From Ectocarpus siliculosus (taxonomy: Eukaryota > Sar > Phaeophyceae > Ectocarpales > Ectocarpaceae), in assembly GCA_000310025.1 (NCBI GenBank), contig FN648492.1, positions 123,932-187,931 of the forward strand: a DNA stretch of 64,000 nt, written 5' to 3'. A model generated the notes under the pieces. That model did no database searches and was not told the DNA's origin. It saw only the letters and a program-made list of their open reading frames with translations. Made by a program: the position numbers and the translations under genes. Shown piece by piece: positions 31,963-62,653 of this stretch. Position 1 is the stretch's first letter; each line of letters opens with the position of its first letter.

Positions 31963-32290
31963 AGGCAGACAGACAAACAGACAGATAGGCAGACAGACAG
32001 ACAGAAAAGAGCCATCGACAGGCATGCCTGAGCATCGACCCATTGTTGTATATTTTTGTATATTGCATGCCTGAGCATCAACACATTGTTGTATACGAGT
32101 ATTCTGTACATTCCAAATGTAAATACTGTACATCCAGGTTCGGAGAGCGACTGACAGGCACCAACAGCCAGGCATGCCTGAGCATCAACACATTGTTGTA
32201 TATTTTGTACTTCATTCCAAATGTAAATACTGTACGTCCAGGTTGGGAGAGTGACTGACAGGCATCAACAGACAGGAGAGACGATTGTAG
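31963..32290. repeat. (CAGA)n run and three-copy repeat
   Basis: A degenerate CAGA/CAGG run at about 31963-32005 is followed by three copies of gcatgcctgagcatcRacNc with cattgttgtata (about 32022, 32066 and 32172). Two copies continue into a longer shared block ending near gagcgactgacaggca. Confidence 0.85.
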
Positions 32291-32770
32291 CGTCTCCGTG
32301 GGATCATTGACGGTACAATACTTGAACTTTCGACCCACTCTTCCGCTGATTCTAAACTCAATGGTTCTGGTATCTAGGAAGTACGCGGGCGGGCCGGAAG
32401 GGACTTTGCCTCCGCCGCCCTTAGCAGCACACAATTCGATCTTTACAAGCCACGCGGTTTCCCCCGATCCCATTCAGTTAATGTTACGAGCGGTGACGAG
32501 ATGGATACTGGCTATAGCCAAATTGAGAAGGTGCTTGAAGCGTCGCCCGGATTTGTTGTCCCGGGCATGCTTGTTTGGCACGTTGAAAAGAAGAGCCGGG
32601 CACCTCGTCGCTCCCTACTTCCAGTACCTTAGCAGGCTTGCTTGCTTCCGTATCGCCTACCCAGGCAACGTTTCCTTTTTTTGGATGAAATATCCGGGGC
32701 CCCCTCTGTACGAACCCCCCGCCGGTGTCTCGAGAAGTCGGCAGCTGTCGTTCGTGCATGACACATTGCA

Positions 32771-33500
32771 CCCATCGTTACTCCTGACGTCGCTCTTTCA
32801 ACCATCGTTACTCCTGACGTCGCTCTTTCAACCATCATTACTCCTGACGTCGCTCTTTCAACCATCGTTACTCCTGACGTCGCTCTTTCAACCATCGTTA
32901 CTCCTGACGTCGCTCTTTCAACCATCGTTACTCCTGACGTCGCTCTTTCAACCATCGTTACTCCTGACGTCGCTCTTTCAACCATCGTTACTCCTGACGT
33001 CGCTCTTTCAACCATCGTTACTCCTGACGTCGCTCTTTCAACCATCGTTACTCCTGACGTCGCTCTTTCAACCATCGTTACTCCTGACGTCGCTCTTTCA
33101 ACCATCATTACTCCTGACGTCGCTCTTTCAACCATCGTTACTCCTGACGTCGCTCTTTCAACCATCGTTACTCCTGACGTTGCTCTTTCAACCATCGTTA
33201 CTCCTGACGTCGCTCTTTCAACCATCGTTACTCCTGACGTCGCTCTTTCAACCATCGTTACTCCTGACGTCGCTCTTTCAACCATCGTTACTCCTGACGT
33301 CGCTCTTTCAACCATCGTTACTCCTGACGTCGCTCTTTCAACCATCATTACTCCTGACGTCGCTCTTTCAACCATCGTTACTCCTGACGTTGCTCTTTCA
33401 ACCATCGTTACTCCTGACGTCGCTCTTTCAACCATCGTTACTCCTGACGTTGCTCTTTCAACCATCGTTACTCCTGACGTCGCTCTTTCAACCATCGTTC
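32771..33500. repeat. 30-bp minisatellite, about 24 copies
   Basis: The unit ctcctgacgtcgctctttca plus accatcgtta repeats about 24 times with only single-base variants (cgtta/catta, gtcgct/gttgct). The period is a multiple of three, so both strands stay open: + gives QPSLLLTSLF and - gives MVERATSGVT. The surrounding 438-codon + frame (32298-33614) and 295-codon - frame (32629-33516) are most likely by-products. Confidence 0.97.
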
Positions 33501-34529
33501 GGGCTGAAATCTTCACTGAGGAGGCTGTTTTTTACCAATCCATTTCTGAACTACTGCAGTTGGCCTCGTCACTGTCCCGATGAAATCTTAAAAAAAGGGG
33601 CTGTCTGTCCGTAGCGGGCGTAACCCGTTGCGGCTGTGTATGTAGACGTTTACTGCCGGGTTGGGGCACTCGGGGCGTTTTTTTGTTGCCATTCTGGAAA
33701 GCACCAGTGTCAGCCACAGCGTTGTGGAGTGCTTCTATAGCGCCAATACCATATGCTTCTTTCATGCTTGTACTGCAGTTCGCCTTGAGTATATCGGTTG
33801 GGCAGCATCGCGCCGGCCGGCCGCAAGACTGCTGTCGCCGGTGAGGTGGTAGGGTGCGTCTACCCTCCGCACGGAGGGAGGGATCAAGGCACACGCTCCC
33901 TGGGGGTTGCGTCATGTACTAGGTGAGCTCGCCTCTTGAGCTGAGGCGTTCGAGATGACTGAGAGAAATGCAACAACGGAGGACAACTAACGAGCTGCCT
34001 GTGGGTTAACTCTCGTTTGCCGCCTTCTTGGCTAATTCAGACGGTTGGGCTCCCGCTTGGATGGAATCACTGCATCATTATGCTTTGCTTCCATCGAGCG
34101 GGGACCAAATGGTCGAATTAACCAAGAAGGCGGGATTCGGGTTGTCCTCCGGTGGGGTATGTCGATCTGGTCATCTTTGGCGTCTCGGCATAAGGTGTTG
34201 AGCCCACCGAAACTTGTCCGCCCCGTGCCTGATGTACTATGATACTAATTTCTACTACAATACATACTCAAGTGGTACTCGGCCCACCAATGATATGTCG
34301 AGGCGAATCTGCATACAAATGTTGTCTCCAGTCAATCTTGGGGTTGACTGGATTCGAAAACGACCTTCATGAAGAGCGCACCCAGCGATCACACACGAGA
34401 TGAAAAAATGACCAATTGGGACGGACTTGTCTTGACATGCAATCTACACTACTGTATGCGTACCTGCGCACACCTTTTTTTTCACACCAAGACAAGATTT
34501 TTCACAAGTCTCACTTAAAGACGACACAA
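33501..34529. other. Spacer, nothing recognised
   Basis: No repeat of note and only short reading frames. Confidence 0.5.
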
Positions 34530-38319: not shown

Positions 38320-38428
38320 CTACAAGTGAAGCATCGTATTTTCTTCCCGCTACCCCACGCCGTGTTCTCTCCTACAAGTGAAACATCGTATTTTGTTCCC
38401 GCTACCCCACGCCGTGTTCTCTCCCATG
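38320..38428. repeat. 54-bp tandem repeat, two copies
   Basis: The block ctacaagtgaaRcatcgtat continuing to ccacgccgtgttctctcc occurs twice in a row. It sits at the downstream edge of the reverse transcriptase remnant. Confidence 0.9.
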
Positions 38429-39850
38429 TCCAACGCCTCATGTCCTTGTTGCTGCTCCTGCCAACGAATGTTGGGCCGGTACGAGTGCAAATTTGAGGCA
38501 ATTTCGTCGTGCTTCCATCTCGAGATACCATCAGCGAACGTGTTGGCCACGCCCTTGATGTGCTATGCCCTCAAACGCCACTCGCTCCGCATTTCCAACC
38601 ACCCAAGCACCCGACCTCGGCTCCTTTGCTCCCCCACAGTTGTTAACCCAGTGGACGGCACGCATGTTGTCTCCTCTCATCAAGATGATCTGCCTGTACG
38701 GTCAACGCCCATGCCGTGACTAGCATGCCCAGCAACTCGAACACGTTCATCGACAAATCATGTCGAGAGAGTACCCGGTTGCGGAGGCGCACCCGAGTAT
38801 CATCTGTGAAACCTACAAAATCTATCCTCCACCACTGACCAGTCTCTAGGAAAAACAATCTCTTGCCGTACCCACTAGCATTGCTCACAAGTGTTGGAGA
38901 CGGCGCCTGCAAAAAGGAGAAGTGCAAGGGCGCCTCTGACCGCGTGATTCCATCCGACCCTGTAGCTGTGGCCATGGCTTTTCCTCCAGAAGGCCCAAGC
39001 CTTCATGAAACTCTCGACCCATTTTACAAAAACGCAGCCGCGTTTGTGCTTGCCTCCTACCTTAAAGCCGGTACCCGTATCTTCCCCCGCTTTCACTGGC
39101 GCTAGCCCCAACCGGGTCAGGATGCGGCGTACGAAACACTTGCCCGGTCTTTTACCGCTTCGCACCAAGTGCAGCAACTTTCCCAACAACGACCGCACCT
39201 CCTTCACAGTGGCTACCGGTCTCTCTACCGCCCATTCCGCCAACATGGCCCCCAAGTGCGCAAATTTCTCTTTGTGACACCGAAATCGTCATCGCCACTG
39301 TATCGATCAGCCTTCCTATTTAGCGTTTCCATGCGCGTATCCCACGACGTGGGTTTCTCCGTATCAAAGAGGGGAGGGTCCCCCCCCCTCGTGGCGATTG
39401 CCGAATAAGCGAAAGCTGTCGGACGCGTATGAACGAGTCGCGCGCAGACATCGTCTCCCCCGCAGTAAGCTCTCAAGCTCTACGAATAACGCATCTTCCA
39501 CGTAGCTATTTACGCACCCAGAAGTTGTTGCGGATTAGCTCCCCCGAACCCCGCGGAAAAACATTATCCGGCGGCAACTTCCGCGCACTTCGTTCTCTCG
39601 GGGTGGCTCTTCGCAGGCATGACTGGTGGCCTCCCGACCTTCCGGGGTGATTACTGCGGACGTGACAGTCGTGTTGTTGTGCGCATGTGGTACGGCGGAA
39701 GCACACGCCCCACAACACCGGGGAGCTAGTGCACCCAAACTGGAGACATGGGTCTACAATTACAAGATCCTCGAACACGTGTAAACCAAACGGCGTTCAC
39801 ATGTATGGCGCCATTCAGAGTCATCAACTCGTCCGTTAGGTTATTCTGGC
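38350..39850 (-). pseudogene. Decayed reverse transcriptase-RNase H, DIRS/Ngaro-like
   Basis: Pieces of one polymerase are readable in different frames from high to low coordinates: LQFGCTSSPVLWG (RT palm, about 39740), IDTVAMTISV (about 39290), KEVRSLLGKLLHLVRSGKRP (RT thumb, about 39190), VSNASGYGKRLFF and MNVFELLGMLVTAW (RNase H, about 38870 and 38740), and HIKGVANTFADGISRW (RNase H end, about 38530). Several frameshifts and at least one in-frame stop (just before HIKG) separate them. The thumb LLGKL...RPGKxF and the FADGISRW end fit tyrosine-recombinase retrotransposons better than copia or gypsy, but class assignment from such fragments is tentative. No recombinase or terminal repeats lie nearby. 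Confidence 0.72.
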
Positions 39851-56132: not shown

Positions 56133-56395
56133 AGGAAGGTTTGTTCGTCGAAGCAGATAGAATAAACTGGTGTTTATTTTGTAACAGTCGAATTAGAATT
56201 TGGCTTCATTTTCTACCGGAAACCCAGGGTCACGGTGTTTGGAATTATTAGTCTATAGTTGGGGGTGTCATTCCGTGATCGAGTCCACGCAGGGGCTGTA
56301 GCAAAGTCGGGTAACGTGTGACAGCTACAGAGCGCGTGAAGCAACGGAAGGACAGCAGCAGCCGCCTAACGCAGTAGCGGCGGCAGTTTAGAAAA
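56133..56395 (+). repeat. Split direct repeat A1 (left end)
   Basis: Matches 62083-62345 without visible difference (constant offset 5950). It is followed by gggcggga, whereas A2 is followed by tcccgccc, its reverse complement. Confidence 0.95.
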
Positions 56396-56450
56396 GGGCG
56401 GGACGGGACACGGCGCAAGCATTGGGGAAGTGACCAGCACGCGACTCTCC

Positions 56451-56458
56451 ATATAAAG
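56451..56458 (+). promoter_or_regulatory. TATA-like box of the retroelement
   Basis: atataaag lies 56 bp after the end of A1 and upstream of all element reading frames, a plausible position for the genomic promoter. Inferred from sequence only. Confidence 0.45.
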
Positions 56459-56636
56459 GTGTGTACTCGTGTCCAACATCCATCGTGTCGGCCGTGTTCC
56501 TATTCGCGTCCCGCTACTCTTGTGACCTCACCGCTGCGTGCATTTAGCACGAGGGGGGAGGGTGCAGTAAGATAAGCGGCGGCAAGCCAACGCAGTCTCG
56601 CTCGCCGCGCCGCTCAGATAGGTCCCTTCCCAAACA

Positions 56637-56730
56637 TGGGATGCGGTTCATCCCAACCGAGACGTACTCTCGCTGAAGAAAAAAAATGCGGTTCGTCCCA
56701 ACCAGACGTACTCTCTCTGAAGAAAAAATT
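56637..56730. repeat. Two-copy direct repeat in the element leader
   Basis: Two copies of atgcggttcRtcccaacc with gacgtactctcNctgaagaa lie side by side, about 46 bp per unit. Confidence 0.85.
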
Positions 56731-57544
56731 CAACGGCAAAAAGAAAGAGCGGGGCCTGTTGTATGGTCGCACGCTGACTTGTCGCGGTTGATAGCAGCCA
56801 TTGTACTGCACGGGGTGGAGGAACCCTGCGGCATCGGACATAACCAATCGACCCGCGGCAGTAGGGCATGATGCTGTCACGATTATGCACATGAGGCAGG
56901 TGCCTTGTTTTCTGTTTCCCCCGGCTACTAGGGACTACTTGCCGGTACAATCTTGTCTGTGCCGCGCACAGAGGGGCATATAGCTGAAGGAATCGACGAT
57001 AATATGCCCACTCACGTAAGCAATCGTCTCCACGGATGGTATTGACAAGTCCCCACTGATGGTATCGACAAGTCCCATGGCATACAAAGCGGCCGCATAC
57101 GTAATCGGAAAGTGCATTCAACAGCATTCACGGGAACGGATAAAAGCAAAAACACATGCATGCGAGAGAAAGACTCAAAGAAAAAGACTGAAAAACAATG
57201 AAGACGAGAAAAAAAAAAACGAGACAGCGAACTACGTGCTGTATGCATAAGGAAAAAGAAGATGAGAAAAAAATAGGGGGGGGAGGTGGATGTGACACGC
57301 GAGGTTCGAACTCGCGAGGAACGTCAGGTAGCGGTCCATGTGAGTGCATCACGGTCTCGAGGGGCATCACGTCAAATTTATTGCCGCCGTGACACAAACC
57401 TTCTATAAGAATACGTCACGTCCATCGACGATTAAGCGACCAAAAACGCCCGGACAGCAATTGATGCATGCCAAAAACTCGTCCACCTGCCGTAGGATTG
57501 TCTATGCGGAAGTGATCTCAATGAAAATAAAAAAAAAACAAGGA

Positions 57545-59290
57545 CACGCACCAGCACGGGACGCGCCAATAGTGGAAGCACTCGTCCGTGCTGTTGGCGA
57601 GTGGAAGTTAACCGATCTCAACGCAACGAAACACGAAGTCATACATGTATCAGCACGGGATGCGCCAATGAGTGGAAGCACCCGCGCTGTTGGCGAGTAG
57701 AGTTAACCGAATTCAACGCAGCGGTAGAAAAATACCACAAATCATGCATCAGTACGGGACGCGCCAATGAGTGGAAGCACCCGTGCTGCATATGTGATGT
57801 CAGCCTCAGCACGGGACGCGCCAATGAGTGGAAGCACTCGTGCGGTTGGTGAGTAGAGTTAACCGATCTCAAAAAGAAAGAACAAAACGCCGTACATGTA
57901 TCAGCACGGGACGCGCCAATGAGTGGAAGCACCCGCGCTGTTGGCGAGTAGAGTTAACCGAATTCAACGCAGCGGTAGAAAAATACCACAAATCATGCAT
58001 CAGTACGGGACGCGCCAATGAGTGGAAGCACCCGTGCTGCATATGTGATGTCAGCCTCAGCACGGGACGCGCCAATGAGTGGAAGCACTCGTGCTGTTGG
58101 CGAGTAGAGTTAACCGATCTCAAAAAGAAAGAACAAAACGCCGTACATGTATCAGCACGGGACGCGCCAATGAGTGGAAGCACCCGCGCTGTTGGCGAGT
58201 AGAGTTAACCGAATTCAACGCAGCGGTAGGAAATACCACAAATCATGCATCAGTACGGGACGCGCCAATGAGTGGAAGCACCCGTGCTGCATATGTGTTG
58301 TCAGCCTCAGCACGGGACGCGCCAACGAGTGGAAGCACTCGTGCTGTTGGCGAGTAGAGTTAACCGATCTCAAAAAGAAAGAACAAAACGCCGTACACGT
58401 ATCAGCACGGGACGCACCAATGAGTGGAAGCACCCGCGCTGTTGGCGAGTAGAGTTAACCGAATTCAACGCAGCGGTAGGAAATACCACAAATCATGCAT
58501 CAGTACGGGACGCGCCAATGAGTGGAAGCACCCGTGCTGTATATGTGTTGTCAGCCTCAGCACGGGACGCGCCAACGAGTGGAAGCACTCGTGCTGTTGG
58601 CGAGTAGAGTTAACCGATCTCAAAAAGAAAGAACAAAACGCCGTACACGTATTAGCACGGGACGCGCCAATGAGTGGACGCACCCGTGCTGTTGGCGAGT
58701 AGAGTTAACCGAATTCAACGCATCGAAAACGAAGTCGTACACGTATCAGTACGGGACGCGCCAATGAGTGGAAGCACCCGTGCTGCATATGTGTTGTCAG
58801 TTTCAGCAAGGGACGCGCCAATGAGTGCTGTTGGCGAGTAGAGTTAACCGATCTCAAAAAGAAAGAACAAAAACGCCGTACACGTATCAGTACGGGACGC
58901 GCCAATGAGTGGGCGCACCCGTGCTGTTGGGCGAGTAGAATTAACCGATCTCCACGCATCGAAAACGAAGTCATACACGTATCAGTACGGGACGCGCCAA
59001 TGAGTGGAAGCACCCGTGCTCATATGTGTTGTCAGTTTCAGCAAGGGACGCGCCAATGAGTGGAAGCACCCGCGCTGCGTACAAGTATCATCAATGCGGG
59101 TCGCGCCAATGAGTGGAAGCACCCGTGCTGCATATGTGTTGTCAGTTTCAGCGAGGGACGCGCCAATGAGTGGAAGCACCCGCGCTGTTGGCAAGTGGAG
59201 TTCACCGTATCCAACGCATCGAAAAAAAAAAAAAAAAACACGTATCAGCACGGGACGCGCCAATGAGTGGAAGCACCCGTGCCGATGGCG
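57545..59290. repeat. Higher-order tandem array with hairpin subunits
   Basis: The core gggacgcgccaatgagtgga recurs about 20 times. It is arranged in higher-order units of about 250 bp (equivalent sites at 57828, 58079 and 58329) that share gagtagagttaaccga spacers. Most cores are flanked by AGCACGGG or AGTACGGG and CCCGTGCT or CCCGCGCT, so single strands could form a stem of about 8 bp with a 20-nt loop. The array is in the leader between the TATA-like box and the gag-like region. Reading frames across it are artefacts. Confidence 0.93.
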
Positions 59291-59572
59291 AACCGGGGTT
59301 CACCGAATCCAAGAAAATATATATATAAAAAAAAAAAAAAAAGAGAAACCATCGCTAGTGTTCCAAAGAGAGAAATATTCGGGATTGGTCGACGTCCGGT
59401 GACCGTAGCGTCAGCAGCAATAATCACTCCATTCAATCCACAGGCGTCGAGAATGAACTAACGCGAGCTCGCGATATAACAACGCGTCGTTCTGGGCCCG
59501 ACGAAAACCCACGTCAGATAGTTTCGCCCGAAGATAGGATTTGTAGACCATTCTAACTGCAGATCCAGGCGC

Positions 59573-60577
59573 GCGATCGACTACGCCCACGATGAAGAGG
59601 AAAAGAAGTGTTCCCGCAACGCCGCCCTGACGCTCGCCCGCCGCCTGCCGCCGGTCCGCTGCTTATACGACTCCAACCGCGACCAGATGCCGACACGGGC
59701 CTCCACGCGGAGCGGCAGGGCAGCGGCTGGGCAAGCAGGGCGAGGTCGGGCGGCGACACCTTCGACACCACGCACGAGAGGTCTACCGCGCGATCGGTGG
59801 CGAGCTCGACGGCTCGCCCCTCGACGCGCAGCGGATCACGTACTCCCGCGAGGCGTCGAGCGGTATCCTCCTCGCGAGCGCCAGGGACAGGCACCCGCGG
59901 CGACCCCCCCGCTGATGAGACTGAGCTCGCTTCTCTCCGCGGGCTGGTGGACGGCCTGAGGGAGGAGCTGCAGCGGAAGCGCGATGAGGCTGCCGGTGAT
60001 CGCCAGCAGCTTCAAGCAACGATCGACGACCTGATCGCCACCCAAGCAGCAGGACCTGGCCTTCCGGGGGGGGGTGCAACTTGTGGGCACAACCGCCCCA
60101 CCATCGGCCTCTCGGGCCCCCGCTACACCCAGCGCCGAGGCGGCTAAGGCTACGGCAAAGGATAGAGCGCGGATGTGGGGGGACCTCCGCCGGGTAAAAG
60201 CGTGGCTCATCCTGGGGCGGCCCCCGGCAGTTTCAAAACTGTCGCAGATGGAGTGGCAATCCTTGCTTCGCAAAGGCGTCCTGGTGACAGAGAAAGTGGC
60301 GGCATCGCTCGACACGCTCGTGGTTACTGCTTCGCCTTCAACTCGTCGTCCGGTTGCCATGATCGTAACTGCCCACACATCCACGCCCAGAACCCTTCCC
60401 ACGCTAGGCGCGGAGCGTCCGAAACTCCGGCAACCGGCGCGCGCGGCGTTGGCCACGGCAACGGGGGAGGGCGCGGAGGAGAGGCGCGCGCCGCTGGCGA
60501 GGGCGGCGCGAGACCCAAGGCCGCTGGCTTCTTCACCCACGGGAAAGACAAATAGGGGTGCGGGCTCTCCCGCGTAG
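59573..60577 (+). pseudogene. Gag-like region with CCCH zinc finger, frame-broken
   Basis: Coding character moves between frames. An N-terminal part has AIDYAHDEEEKKCSRNAALT. A segment with EVYRAIGGELDGSPLDAQRI follows. A coiled-coil-like stretch (SLRGLVDGLREELQRKRDEA, about 59930-60000) comes next. Last is a CCCH finger, YCFAFNSSSGCHDRNCPHIH (about 60325-60385; C-x8-C-x4-C-x3-H). Frame changes fall close to homopolymers, notably the C run at about 59906 and the G run at about 60066. Either the gene is decaying or these are sequencing errors. Ngaro-type elements commonly encode a gag-like first ORF; the match here is by position and zinc finger, not by global similarity. Confidence 0.55.
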
Positions 60578-60648
60578 CGGGGGGGCCTACCTCGGATGGC
60601 AGCGCACCTGCGGCTAAATCGAACGGCAGCACGCCGGTCTACACGAGG

Positions 60649-61803
60649 TTGGCTCCAGGGCTATCAGCAGGTTCAGGACCTGGGACAGGCAGGACGGGAC
60701 TTTGTTACCGACGTCTTGGCATGCAGCTCGTCGAGCACTCAGTTGCGTCTTCGTCTAGAAGGACTTACACGTCAGGCTTCAACTCTTGGTGCACGTTTCG
60801 CAGGCTGACGGAGAAGCCCAAGTTCCTAGGGCAACGTGCCGGGGACCTTCATGTGTGGGAGTTGATAGACTTCGTAGCCTGGTGTTTCGAGTCTGAGGGT
60901 AATCTAGCGAGTACAATATCCGGAAAACTCACGGCTGTACAACATTTTCATAGGCTGGAAGCTTCTGTCGAGCTAGACTTGTCGTCTCCGATGTTGAAAT
61001 GTGCGCTAAGGGGGATTGCGAGGAACCACGTGGCTGTGGGGACGGTACGCCGTGTGCGCCTGCCTGTGTCTTGGCGTATGCTGCTGGACGGGGAAAGCGC
61101 AAGCCAGAACTGGGGGGAAGGGGGCAGAGTGATGTGGCTGTGTCTGTGCTTGTCCTATCTCTTTATCACACGGTCTGATGAGGTGTTCGCGAATGATGCG
61201 GGCAGGGTGCATGAGGCACACTGTCTTACGAGGGCGGACGTAGCATTGTTTGCTGGCGAGACGCAATTAGTCTTTAGTCACTATCGTAGAGCAGACCGTG
61301 TCGAAATGAGGTTTAGAGGGCACAAGGCCGATCAAGAGCAGAAAGGAAACATACGGGTTCGTACGCGAGACGAAGTCACCGGACCGCAGTCAGGTGTGAG
61401 AGCACGCGGTGGCGCGGTGGCTCTTGTGGTGGAGCTGTTATCGTGTCATGCGACGTTCCCTGACTCCGCACCGTTGGCTTCGTACCGTAGTGGAAGAGCA
61501 GTGAGAGTAGTGAGGTATACTGCTGCCTTCCGTGCACTCAGAGAAGTGGTAGCGAGGTCGGGGCGTAACCCCCAGGAGTACGCGTTGCACTCGTTGCGAA
61601 TTGGAGGCGCGACGGCTCTTGCATCGGGCGGAGACATCGCAGAACGAGTGATTCAGAGAGAAGGGAAGTGGAGGTCGGATGCATACAAGCCGTACGCGCG
61701 AAACAATGTAGAGGATTCGCGGCGAGTGTCACGGAAACTTACAGACGGCAGTAGGATCGTATCGAGACAGCCGGGGGAGGGGACCGTCTGGGGGAACGGA
61801 TAG
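60649..61803 (+). CDS. Tyrosine recombinase of a Ngaro-type retroelement
   Basis: An uninterrupted 384-codon frame ends at TAG 61801. The first ATG is at 60721 (residue 25); upstream codons may be translated from a fusion or non-ATG start. The catalytic set of tyrosine recombinases is present: R175 (LFITRSDE), K226 (RGHKADQEQKG), H314-x-x-R317 (LHSLRIGG), W341 (GKWRSDAYKPYA) and the nucleophile, probably Y349. An N-terminal SAM-like helical region precedes them (RRTYTSGFNSWCTF). It would integrate the circular cDNA. It starts just after the gag-like region, with no space for reverse transcriptase. Intact reading suggests it is or recently was functional. Confidence 0.88.
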   Translation: MAPGLSAGSGPGTGRTGLCYRRLGMQLVEHSVASSSRRTYTSGFNSWCTFRRLTEKPKFLGQRAGDLHVWELIDFVAWCFESEGNLASTISGKLTAVQHFHRLEASVELDLSSPMLKCALRGIARNHVAVGTVRRVRLPVSWRMLLDGESASQNWGEGGRVMWLCLCLSYLFITRSDEVFANDAGRVHEAHCLTRADVALFAGETQLVFSHYRRADRVEMRFRGHKADQEQKGNIRVRTRDEVTGPQSGVRARGGAVALVVELLSCHATFPDSAPLASYRSGRAVRVVRYTAAFRALREVVARSGRNPQEYALHSLRIGGATALASGGDIAERVIQREGKWRSDAYKPYARNNVEDSRRVSRKLTDGSRIVSRQPGEGTVWGNG

Positions 61804-61844
61804 TTGACTTATTCGGTAGTCGTCCAGAAACTGACCTCGATGTG

Positions 61845-62084
61845 GGTGTTGTAGAATGGTGTGTACCATTTGAGGACTTGGTCAGTTTTGGGACTCCTGC
61901 GTTTGCAGTCGTAGTCCCCCGGCTAGTATTTGTGGGGAGAGAGATGGATTTGTAAGAGTTGACGCCGGCCTTTGCAGCTAACGCGGCCGGAGAGACGATG
62001 AGCGTTTCGTGCGTCTCTCTCCCCAACACGTAGCCTAGAAACCGAAGAAATAATGAAGCAATTCGAAAGAAAACAAAATAAAAG
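61845..62084 (+). repeat. Split direct repeat B1
   Basis: Matches 62414-62653 without visible difference (offset 569). It starts 42 bp after the recombinase stop and overlaps the first two bases of A2. Confidence 0.95.
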
Positions 62085-62345
62085 GAAGGTTTGTTCGTCG
62101 AAGCAGATAGAATAAACTGGTGTTTATTTTGTAACAGTCGAATTAGAATTTGGCTTCATTTTCTACCGGAAACCCAGGGTCACGGTGTTTGGAATTATTA
62201 GTCTATAGTTGGGGGTGTCATTCCGTGATCGAGTCCACGCAGGGGCTGTAGCAAAGTCGGGTAACGTGTGACAGCTACAGAGCGCGTGAAGCAACGGAAG
62301 GACAGCAGCAGCCGCCTAACGCAGTAGCGGCGGCAGTTTAGAAAA
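62083..62345 (+). repeat. Split direct repeat A2
   Basis: Second copy of A1, abutting B1. A 68-bp unique segment separates it from B2. Confidence 0.95.
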
Positions 62346-62413
62346 TCCCGCCCTCCCATCCCTTTTCTTTCGAAGGTGGGGGCATAAGTTCGGGAATATT
62401 CGGTATCTAGTCA

Positions 62414-62653
62414 GGTGTTGTAGAATGGTGTGTACCATTTGAGGACTTGGTCAGTTTTGGGACTCCTGCGTTTGCAGTCGTAGTCCCCCGGCTAGTATTT
62501 GTGGGGAGAGAGATGGATTTGTAAGAGTTGACGCCGGCCTTTGCAGCTAACGCGGCCGGAGAGACGATGAGCGTTTCGTGCGTCTCTCTCCCCAACACGT
62601 AGCCTAGAAACCGAAGAAATAATGAAGCAATTCGAAAGAAAACAAAATAAAAG
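62414..62653 (+). repeat. Split direct repeat B2 (right end)
   Basis: Second copy of B1 and the right terminus of the element. Confidence 0.95.

Follow-up and report, generated by a model that had tools for sequence, protein, structure and literature searches.

Introduction

Ngaro elements, retrotransposons that carry a tyrosine recombinase (YR), have been described for Cafeteria burkhardae (PMC8547959) and Xenopus (PMC9210276), the name NgaroDIRS6 occurs in PMC3174193, and 15 Ngaro families with 3893 copies have been reported for Ectocarpus (PMC12477816). For DIRS1, it has been proposed that the junction of a circle recombines with a short target that matches it (PMC3266345). Shortened elements are also on record: Cafeteria harbors type 2b deletion variants without open reading frame 1 (ORF1) (PMC8547959), and SIRE is a truncated VIPER, for which mobility provided by the full VIPER is given as one possibility (PMC6681497). 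Cryptons are DNA elements with a YR domain only (PMC4157794). Here, we analyze an element of about 6.5 kb in a stretch of 64,000 nucleotides from Ectocarpus siliculosus (GenBank assembly GCA_000310025.1, contig FN648492.1; G000:C462:123932-187931 in our numbering; genome size 189.5 Mb), called the window below. The element is Ngaro-like at its ends but does not itself show the reverse transcriptase (RT) and Gag features of that family.

The window element shares with Ngaro the split direct repeats in the arrangement A1-[ORFs]-B1A2B2 and the position of the putative YR as the last gene, and its RT-bearing kin in the same genome carry gag, RT-RNase H and YR in the Ngaro order; it differs from Ngaro in the absence of RT-RNase H and in a broken gag. 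The family may be one of the Ectocarpus Ngaro families of PMC12477816, although an RT-less Ngaro with YR is not described in the main-text parts of that paper that were compared. The Cafeteria type 2b variants, which apparently keep the rest of the element, represent the complementary loss. Like SIRE, the window type is a short derivative of a split-repeat YR retrotransposon, but SIRE consists of the A2-B2 region only, whereas the window type retains YR and most of the non-coding parts. With Cryptons it has in common a putative YR without RT, but it possesses long split repeats, an RT-RNase H remnant and RT-bearing kin, and it thereby departs from a DNA element that has YR only and neither the repeats of a retrotransposon nor RT kin. 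In the parts of the literature covered by a narrow search (PMC8547959, PMC6681497, PMC9210276, PMC4157794, PMC3783388, PMC12477816), the non-autonomous or ORF1-less YR retrotransposons have other shapes. Taken together, the results presented below make it very probable that the element is a non-autonomous internal-deletion derivative of a Ngaro-like retrotransposon with the gene order gag - RT - RNase H - YR and the repeats A1...B1A2B2.

Results and Discussion

Identical repeat pairs, an open recombinase frame and no reverse transcriptase

The element consists, in this order, of A1, a non-coding 5' part, a tandem array, a gag-derived region, YR, B1, A2, a spacer and B2 (Table 1). The two A repeats match at 100% across 263 bp, and the two B repeats at 100% across 240 bp. 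The initial annotation had described a complete split-repeat element with identical pairs in the order A1-B1-A2-B2, and this description is correct; split direct repeats of this kind are a feature of Ngaro and other split-repeat YR retrotransposons. An open YR frame of 415 codons spans 60556-61803; its first ATG is at 60721, and it contains the motifs ITRSDE, HSLR and GKW, as well as a Y at position 322/325 of the ATG-started protein. From established knowledge of such motifs, we take them to resemble those of a tyrosine recombinase. Profiles from Pfam, NCBIfam and PHROGs gave no match to YR, and no recombinase was matched among the PDB sequences. In the genome itself, YR weakly matched, over its HxxR...W stretch, the YRs of further elements that bear RT (tblastn E 0.002 to 3e-6), and hhalign against these YRs yielded E 0.0026 but a probability of 11%. 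The putative recombinase, identified by its motifs and these weak matches, lies directly 5' of the internal repeats.

The RT and RNase H that had been noted as missing are indeed absent. No Pfam match to RT, and no methyltransferase domain, was found in the three plus-strand frames of the window that were scanned; lack of the latter domain sets Ngaro apart from DIRS/PAT. When the genome was searched with an RT fragment from the kin (150 of 172 candidates scored), none of the 149 rows listed lay on the contig of the window. What the window copy retains of the RT-RNase H frame of Ngaro is a tail remnant, namely the last ~47 codons of the frame found in the kin, cut at ~60667. The Gag-like ORF1 of Ngaro is likewise not intact, since the frame is broken and the gag region of the window copy is scattered across several frames.

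The RT-less form predominates among the tallied copies

The counts from the genome searches are lower bounds, with the following numbers of candidate places scored: 101 of 753 for YR, 40 of 423 for the B1A2 stretch, 40 of 138 for gag DNA, 150 of 172 for RT, 150 of 167 for gag protein and 150 of 312 for the tail of the RT-RNase H frame. The tally of gag, RT and YR positions drew on 107 of the 140 gag rows (later, mostly partial ones being omitted), on the top 20 RT rows out of 149, on the top 8 tail rows out of 150, and on all 102 YR rows except a second piece on C257, hence on 101. Both the further copies and the RT-bearing relatives for which the initial annotation had proposed a search were found, and the RT-less form prevails: at 84 of the 101 YR places, gag lies within 1.3 kb and RT is absent, at six RT lies in between, and 11 are not joined to gag. 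This rules out a deletion in the window copy alone. Among the best 40 gag DNA rows, YR is directly adjacent in 31 and within 219 bp in four, and five have no listed YR. The B1A2 stretch occurs in at least 41 full-length rows, all 100% identical after rounding. Of the listed YR rows, 84/102 are at least 95% identical to the YR of the window, and 78/102 contain no stop within the match, 43 of these spanning all 415 residues.

Twenty further copies were read, that is, 21 with the window copy. A1 is present in 18 of them, shortened to 230 bp in one and to 257 bp in another; the copies without A1 are L012 and L013, which are cut by contig ends, and L021, which holds N. B2 is present in 20 of the 21 copies. 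The A1-bearing copies are 2.9 to 6.6 kb long, and their lengths vary by internal deletions and by array length; in the 2.9-kb copy L016, the deletion joint lies at 9 bp common to both sides. L014 and L021 contain 2.8-2.9 kb of N in the interior. Compared with the YR of the window, those of the 20 other copies mostly have one or two differing sites, with a maximum of 12, indels aside. An assembly duplication of the A/B repeats is ruled out by the B1A2 rows, by the 18 copies with A1 and by the differing flanks described below.

Two unusual arrangements were observed. At G000:C12:1581870-1583246, the order is B-A-spacer-B-A-spacer-B with a repeated B-A-spacer unit of 569 bp, a pattern expected from unequal recombination or from a unit carried by a circle. 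In L028 (8831-9372), B1-A2 is followed by the element's own 5' interior (to the equivalent of window position 56665), and there is no B2 after B1-A2 within the stretch read.

RT-bearing kin

In L042-L044, the same YR as in the window is directly preceded by a stretch with ...ARHVKGISNTLADGISRW..., which we interpret, from its motif, as the terminal part of an RNase H domain; this stretch had no Pfam match. An 86-aa query of the tail matched eight places at 93-100%, six from residue 1 and two from residue 4, whereas the match to window-type copies begins only at residue 40. Upstream in C79 (601 + 400 bp read), the RT motifs INDLR, KVDSKDAF and FGWNLSPPYF were recognized, and the match of this segment to PF00078 was weak and below the cut-off (E 9e-4). 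The RT fragment recurs at 94-100% in C79, C27, C14, C74, C156 and C187, and in split form in C147 and C85. The gag segment of the window is found about 1.08 kb before RT in five RT-bearing copies, and with a longer gap in C147; homologous gag frames of 334-565 aa are open in six RT-bearing copies. Since gag recurs at this distance before RT and the RNase H tail adjoins YR, the parent has the order gag - RT - RNase H - YR, that is, the Ngaro order.

Other candidates were rejected. The 1341-aa frame of C241 resembles that of an RT-bearing copy but is a run of N, and L021 calls for similar caution. Among the PF00078 candidates L030-L033, three are, by eye, DDE-integrase-like frames of long terminal repeat (LTR) elements, and L033 is cut by N. 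L048 and L049 were dismissed as parents, with weak YR similarity only and no DNA match to the window at E 1e-3; they represent other RT-bearing YR retrotransposon families (PF00078), and the recombinase of L048 has an ALOG domain. L050 is another YR element with weak YR similarity, the RT of which is known from one upstream match. A search of IMG/VR for close relatives confirmed none.

A common deletion junction and the fate of gag

In all 14 RT-less copies aligned, window-type as well as older ones, the end of gag is joined to the RT-RNase H tail at the identical base, with GGGC(T/A)ATCA before and GCAGGTTCAGG after the joint; L039 has an additional small gap immediately before this junction.

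The gag-YR gaps reveal more than one RT-less layout. In a layout with a 747-bp gap, the gag frames comprise 514, 461 and 363 aa (C269, C137 and C71, respectively), the frame of C137 having one stop within the match. In the shorter layout of the window, gag is broken, and the 33 rows that match the window gag segment without differences have frames of 173 or 180 aa. Therefore, the suggestion of the initial annotation that the element keeps gag and recombinase holds for the open YR frame but not for the broken gag frame. Some other window-like copies have longer frames across the gag segment (316-589 aa), and that of L019 excludes the CCCH motif. C71, C137, C269, C11:1463105 and C344 combine gag frames of 357-514 aa with the RT-less tail junction (the junction of C11 differs), and this type possibly represents an intermediate stage of the loss. 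A plausible order of events leads from RT-bearing elements via RT-less elements with gag to RT-less elements without gag. Elsewhere in the window (38422-38580, minus strand), a relic with one stop resembles the kin's RNase H tail at 57%.

Insertion sites

The flanks differ between the copies examined. In 14 of 18 copies, the left flank ends in AA-N, followed by AGGAAGG; the right ends read ...ATAAA and then host sequence, and the internal junction reads ATAAAAGG. One copy sits in a Copia element, and over 179 bp its joined flanks are 96-99% identical to 16 empty sites without a net gap, hence with neither duplication nor loss of the target. Insertion without target-site duplication, a Ngaro feature, is thus observed for the one copy with a tested empty site. 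This result is in line with the mode proposed for DIRS1, in which a circle junction and a short target matching it recombine.

Selection on the recombinase and possible exchange between elements

In YR, the two RT-bearing copies compared have 5 nonsynonymous versus 11 synonymous substitutions (neutral expectation 73% nonsynonymous, p 0.0007), and the 24 window-type copies, including the N-holding L014 and L021, have 30 nonsynonymous substitutions and one stop versus 9 synonymous ones (p 0.60); the counts are small, and the difference between the two groups is significant (Fisher p 0.0019). The window-type YR, with a neutral-like ratio of 31:9, shows no detectable constraint, and therefore the open frame can be explained by youth. 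Most variants in the young copies probably post-date insertion. The initial annotation regarded the intact YR as specially retained; this view finds no support in the neutral-like ratio, and the open frame is probably for the most part a sign of youth. More generally, an open recombinase frame in a young family tells little about selection.

Within the older copy L034, the members of the A1/A2 and B1/B2 pairs are 99.6% alike, yet they match the repeats of the window at 94% (A) and 97.5-97.9% (B); the pairs of L034 were therefore renewed together, which the split-repeat model requires. In a YR tree of 25 rows, the RT-bearing L042 does not group with L043/L044, RT-less copies being found on both sides, and monophyly of these three copies was rejected (AU p 0.0038). 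This non-monophyly, together with the one deletion junction common to the RT-less copies aligned, suggests that RT-less and RT-bearing elements exchange parts of YR, either through template switching or through gene conversion. The non-monophyly is as expected if both kinds of elements exchange segments during joint copying.

Probable mobilization by RT-bearing relatives and its alternatives

The initial annotation had offered two alternatives, a non-autonomous element that borrows RT and a Crypton-like circular DNA element. The former is the better one: supply of RT in trans is preferred because RT-bearing close kin exist in the same genome, and Gag and YR are probably provided in trans as well, because gag is broken and YR is unconstrained. 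Under this model, transcription would run from A1 to B2. The RT-bearing members would supply RT-RNase H and probably also Gag and YR. The internal B1A2 stretch would then guide the joining of the complementary DNA ends into a circle that has a B2-A1 junction, and YR would recombine this junction (ATAAA joined to AGG) with a short host target rich in A. In this genome, most of the tallied copies are of the RT-less form, and RT-bearing kin and possible intermediates are present alongside them, which allows the order of loss, the need for YR in cis and the exchange with the parent to be tested from sequence.

Several observations weigh against mobilization by RT-bearing kin or limit its basis. 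The RT-bearing copies were read in part, and none was shown to be fully intact. The RT of C79 is probably broken, because its YVDD segment lies out of the 768-aa frame; C74 also has a 768-aa frame, known from a search row alone, the RT of C187 contains stops, and C273 has the tail and no listed RT row. The A/B ends of RT-bearing copies are known only from the first 90-104 bp of B1 in two copies. The RT-bearing side of the substitution counts consists of two copies, and homogeneity within a copy despite divergence between copies was seen in L034 only. The non-monophyly of the RT-bearing copies could also have arisen by gene conversion in the genome, or because two deletions took place at one and the same microhomology. 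Furthermore, the YR of eight older RT-less copies has 38 nonsynonymous substitutions and two stops versus 26 synonymous ones (p 0.04; compared with the RT-bearing pair, p 0.0496), and pairwise dN/dS is 0.42-0.53 between the window and these eight copies versus 0.17 for L043/L044. Because the older copies show this slight constraint, YR may have been used during part of the life of the RT-less lineage.

The last point also favors an alternative in which RT is borrowed in trans, yet Gag or YR is still produced by the RT-less elements themselves. The mostly stop-free YR rows listed, the gag frames of 357-514 aa in the minor RT-less type and the frames of 316-589 aa over the gag segment of some window-like copies are in line with it, but the broken gag frame of the window, also short in the 33 identical rows, and the neutral-like YR ratio of the window-type copies argue in the opposite direction, and we regard own production of Gag or YR as rather unlikely. 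It is improbable that the family is dead, that is, that a burst is over, the copies are decaying and host segmental duplication supplies some of them: damage to some RT-bearing copies would agree with this, but the differing flanks of the copies examined, the clean ends and the high identity indicate independent, recent insertions. We attach similarly little probability to the possibility that the RT-less lineage is a lasting satellite, multiplying as YR-made DNA circles or co-copied with RT-bearing kin and taking up fresh YR segments; it is considered because the lineage would have outlived a synonymous divergence of ~9% (window versus the older RT-less copy L034) without RT.

Least probable is a YR-only, Crypton-like element, the YR of which would excise a circle and reintegrate it without an RNA step, and the repeats of which would stay alike because the two BA units in the circle recombine with each other: the absence of RT, the many stop-free YR matches (78/102, 43 of them over the full length), the tandem B-A units on C12 and the precise insertion without target duplication, which fits excision and retro-circles equally well, are compatible with it, but the RT-RNase H remnant and the RT-bearing kin, the long split repeats typical of YR retrotransposons, the lack of detectable constraint on a YR on which such an element would depend, and the dozens of near-identical copies, which require a copying step, all speak against it, and no evidence specific to a DNA-only cycle was found.

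Features of the element and further observations

Table 1. Positions of the parts of the element within the 64,000-nucleotide window.
Feature	Position	Strand	Remarks
A1, left split direct repeat, 263 bp	56133..56395	+	Insertion boundary at the start or 1 base before
5' non-coding part	56396..57544	+	97.7-99.7% identity between the copies holding it
Tandem array, ~57/95-bp units within 250-bp higher-order units	57545..59291	+	20 motif cores
Gag-derived region, frame-broken	59522..60555	+	180 aa in the window copy
CCCH-like motif C-x8-C-x4-C-x3-H in one gag frame	60328..60384	+	From translation; motif read by eye
RT-RNase H frame remnant, C-terminal end, overlaps YR start	60665..60805	+	Junction at ~60667
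Putative tyrosine recombinase, 360 aa from first ATG	60721..61803	+	Stop-to-stop frame starts at 60556
B1, internal split repeat, 240 bp, 2-bp overlap with A2	61845..62084	+	
A2, internal split repeat with the same 263-bp sequence as A1	62083..62345	+	
A2-B2 spacer, 68 bp	62346..62413	+	Length kept in 19/21 copies
B2, right split repeat	62414..62653	+	Last certain element base 62651 (...ATAAA); next two possibly host

The two exceptions to the spacer length are L012, with 30 bp, and L028, which is without B2. In the array-bearing copies, the array contains 20, 17, 16, 14, 11 or 9 cores, partly in steps of three; L012 has six cores, its array being cut by the contig end, and some deleted copies have no cores.

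Beside one family copy, a relic that by eye resembles an L049-type recombinase was observed (L019, 692-1759, plus strand). A further frame of the window (32259-33611, plus strand) consists of repeated QPSLLLTSLF units and represents a minisatellite. The GC content of the genome is 54%. The EsV-1-7 domain has been called proliferated in brown algae (PMC12477816), and in this genome 880 candidates for the EsV-1-7 motif were found, with all 150 of the 150 scored exceeding the cut-off.

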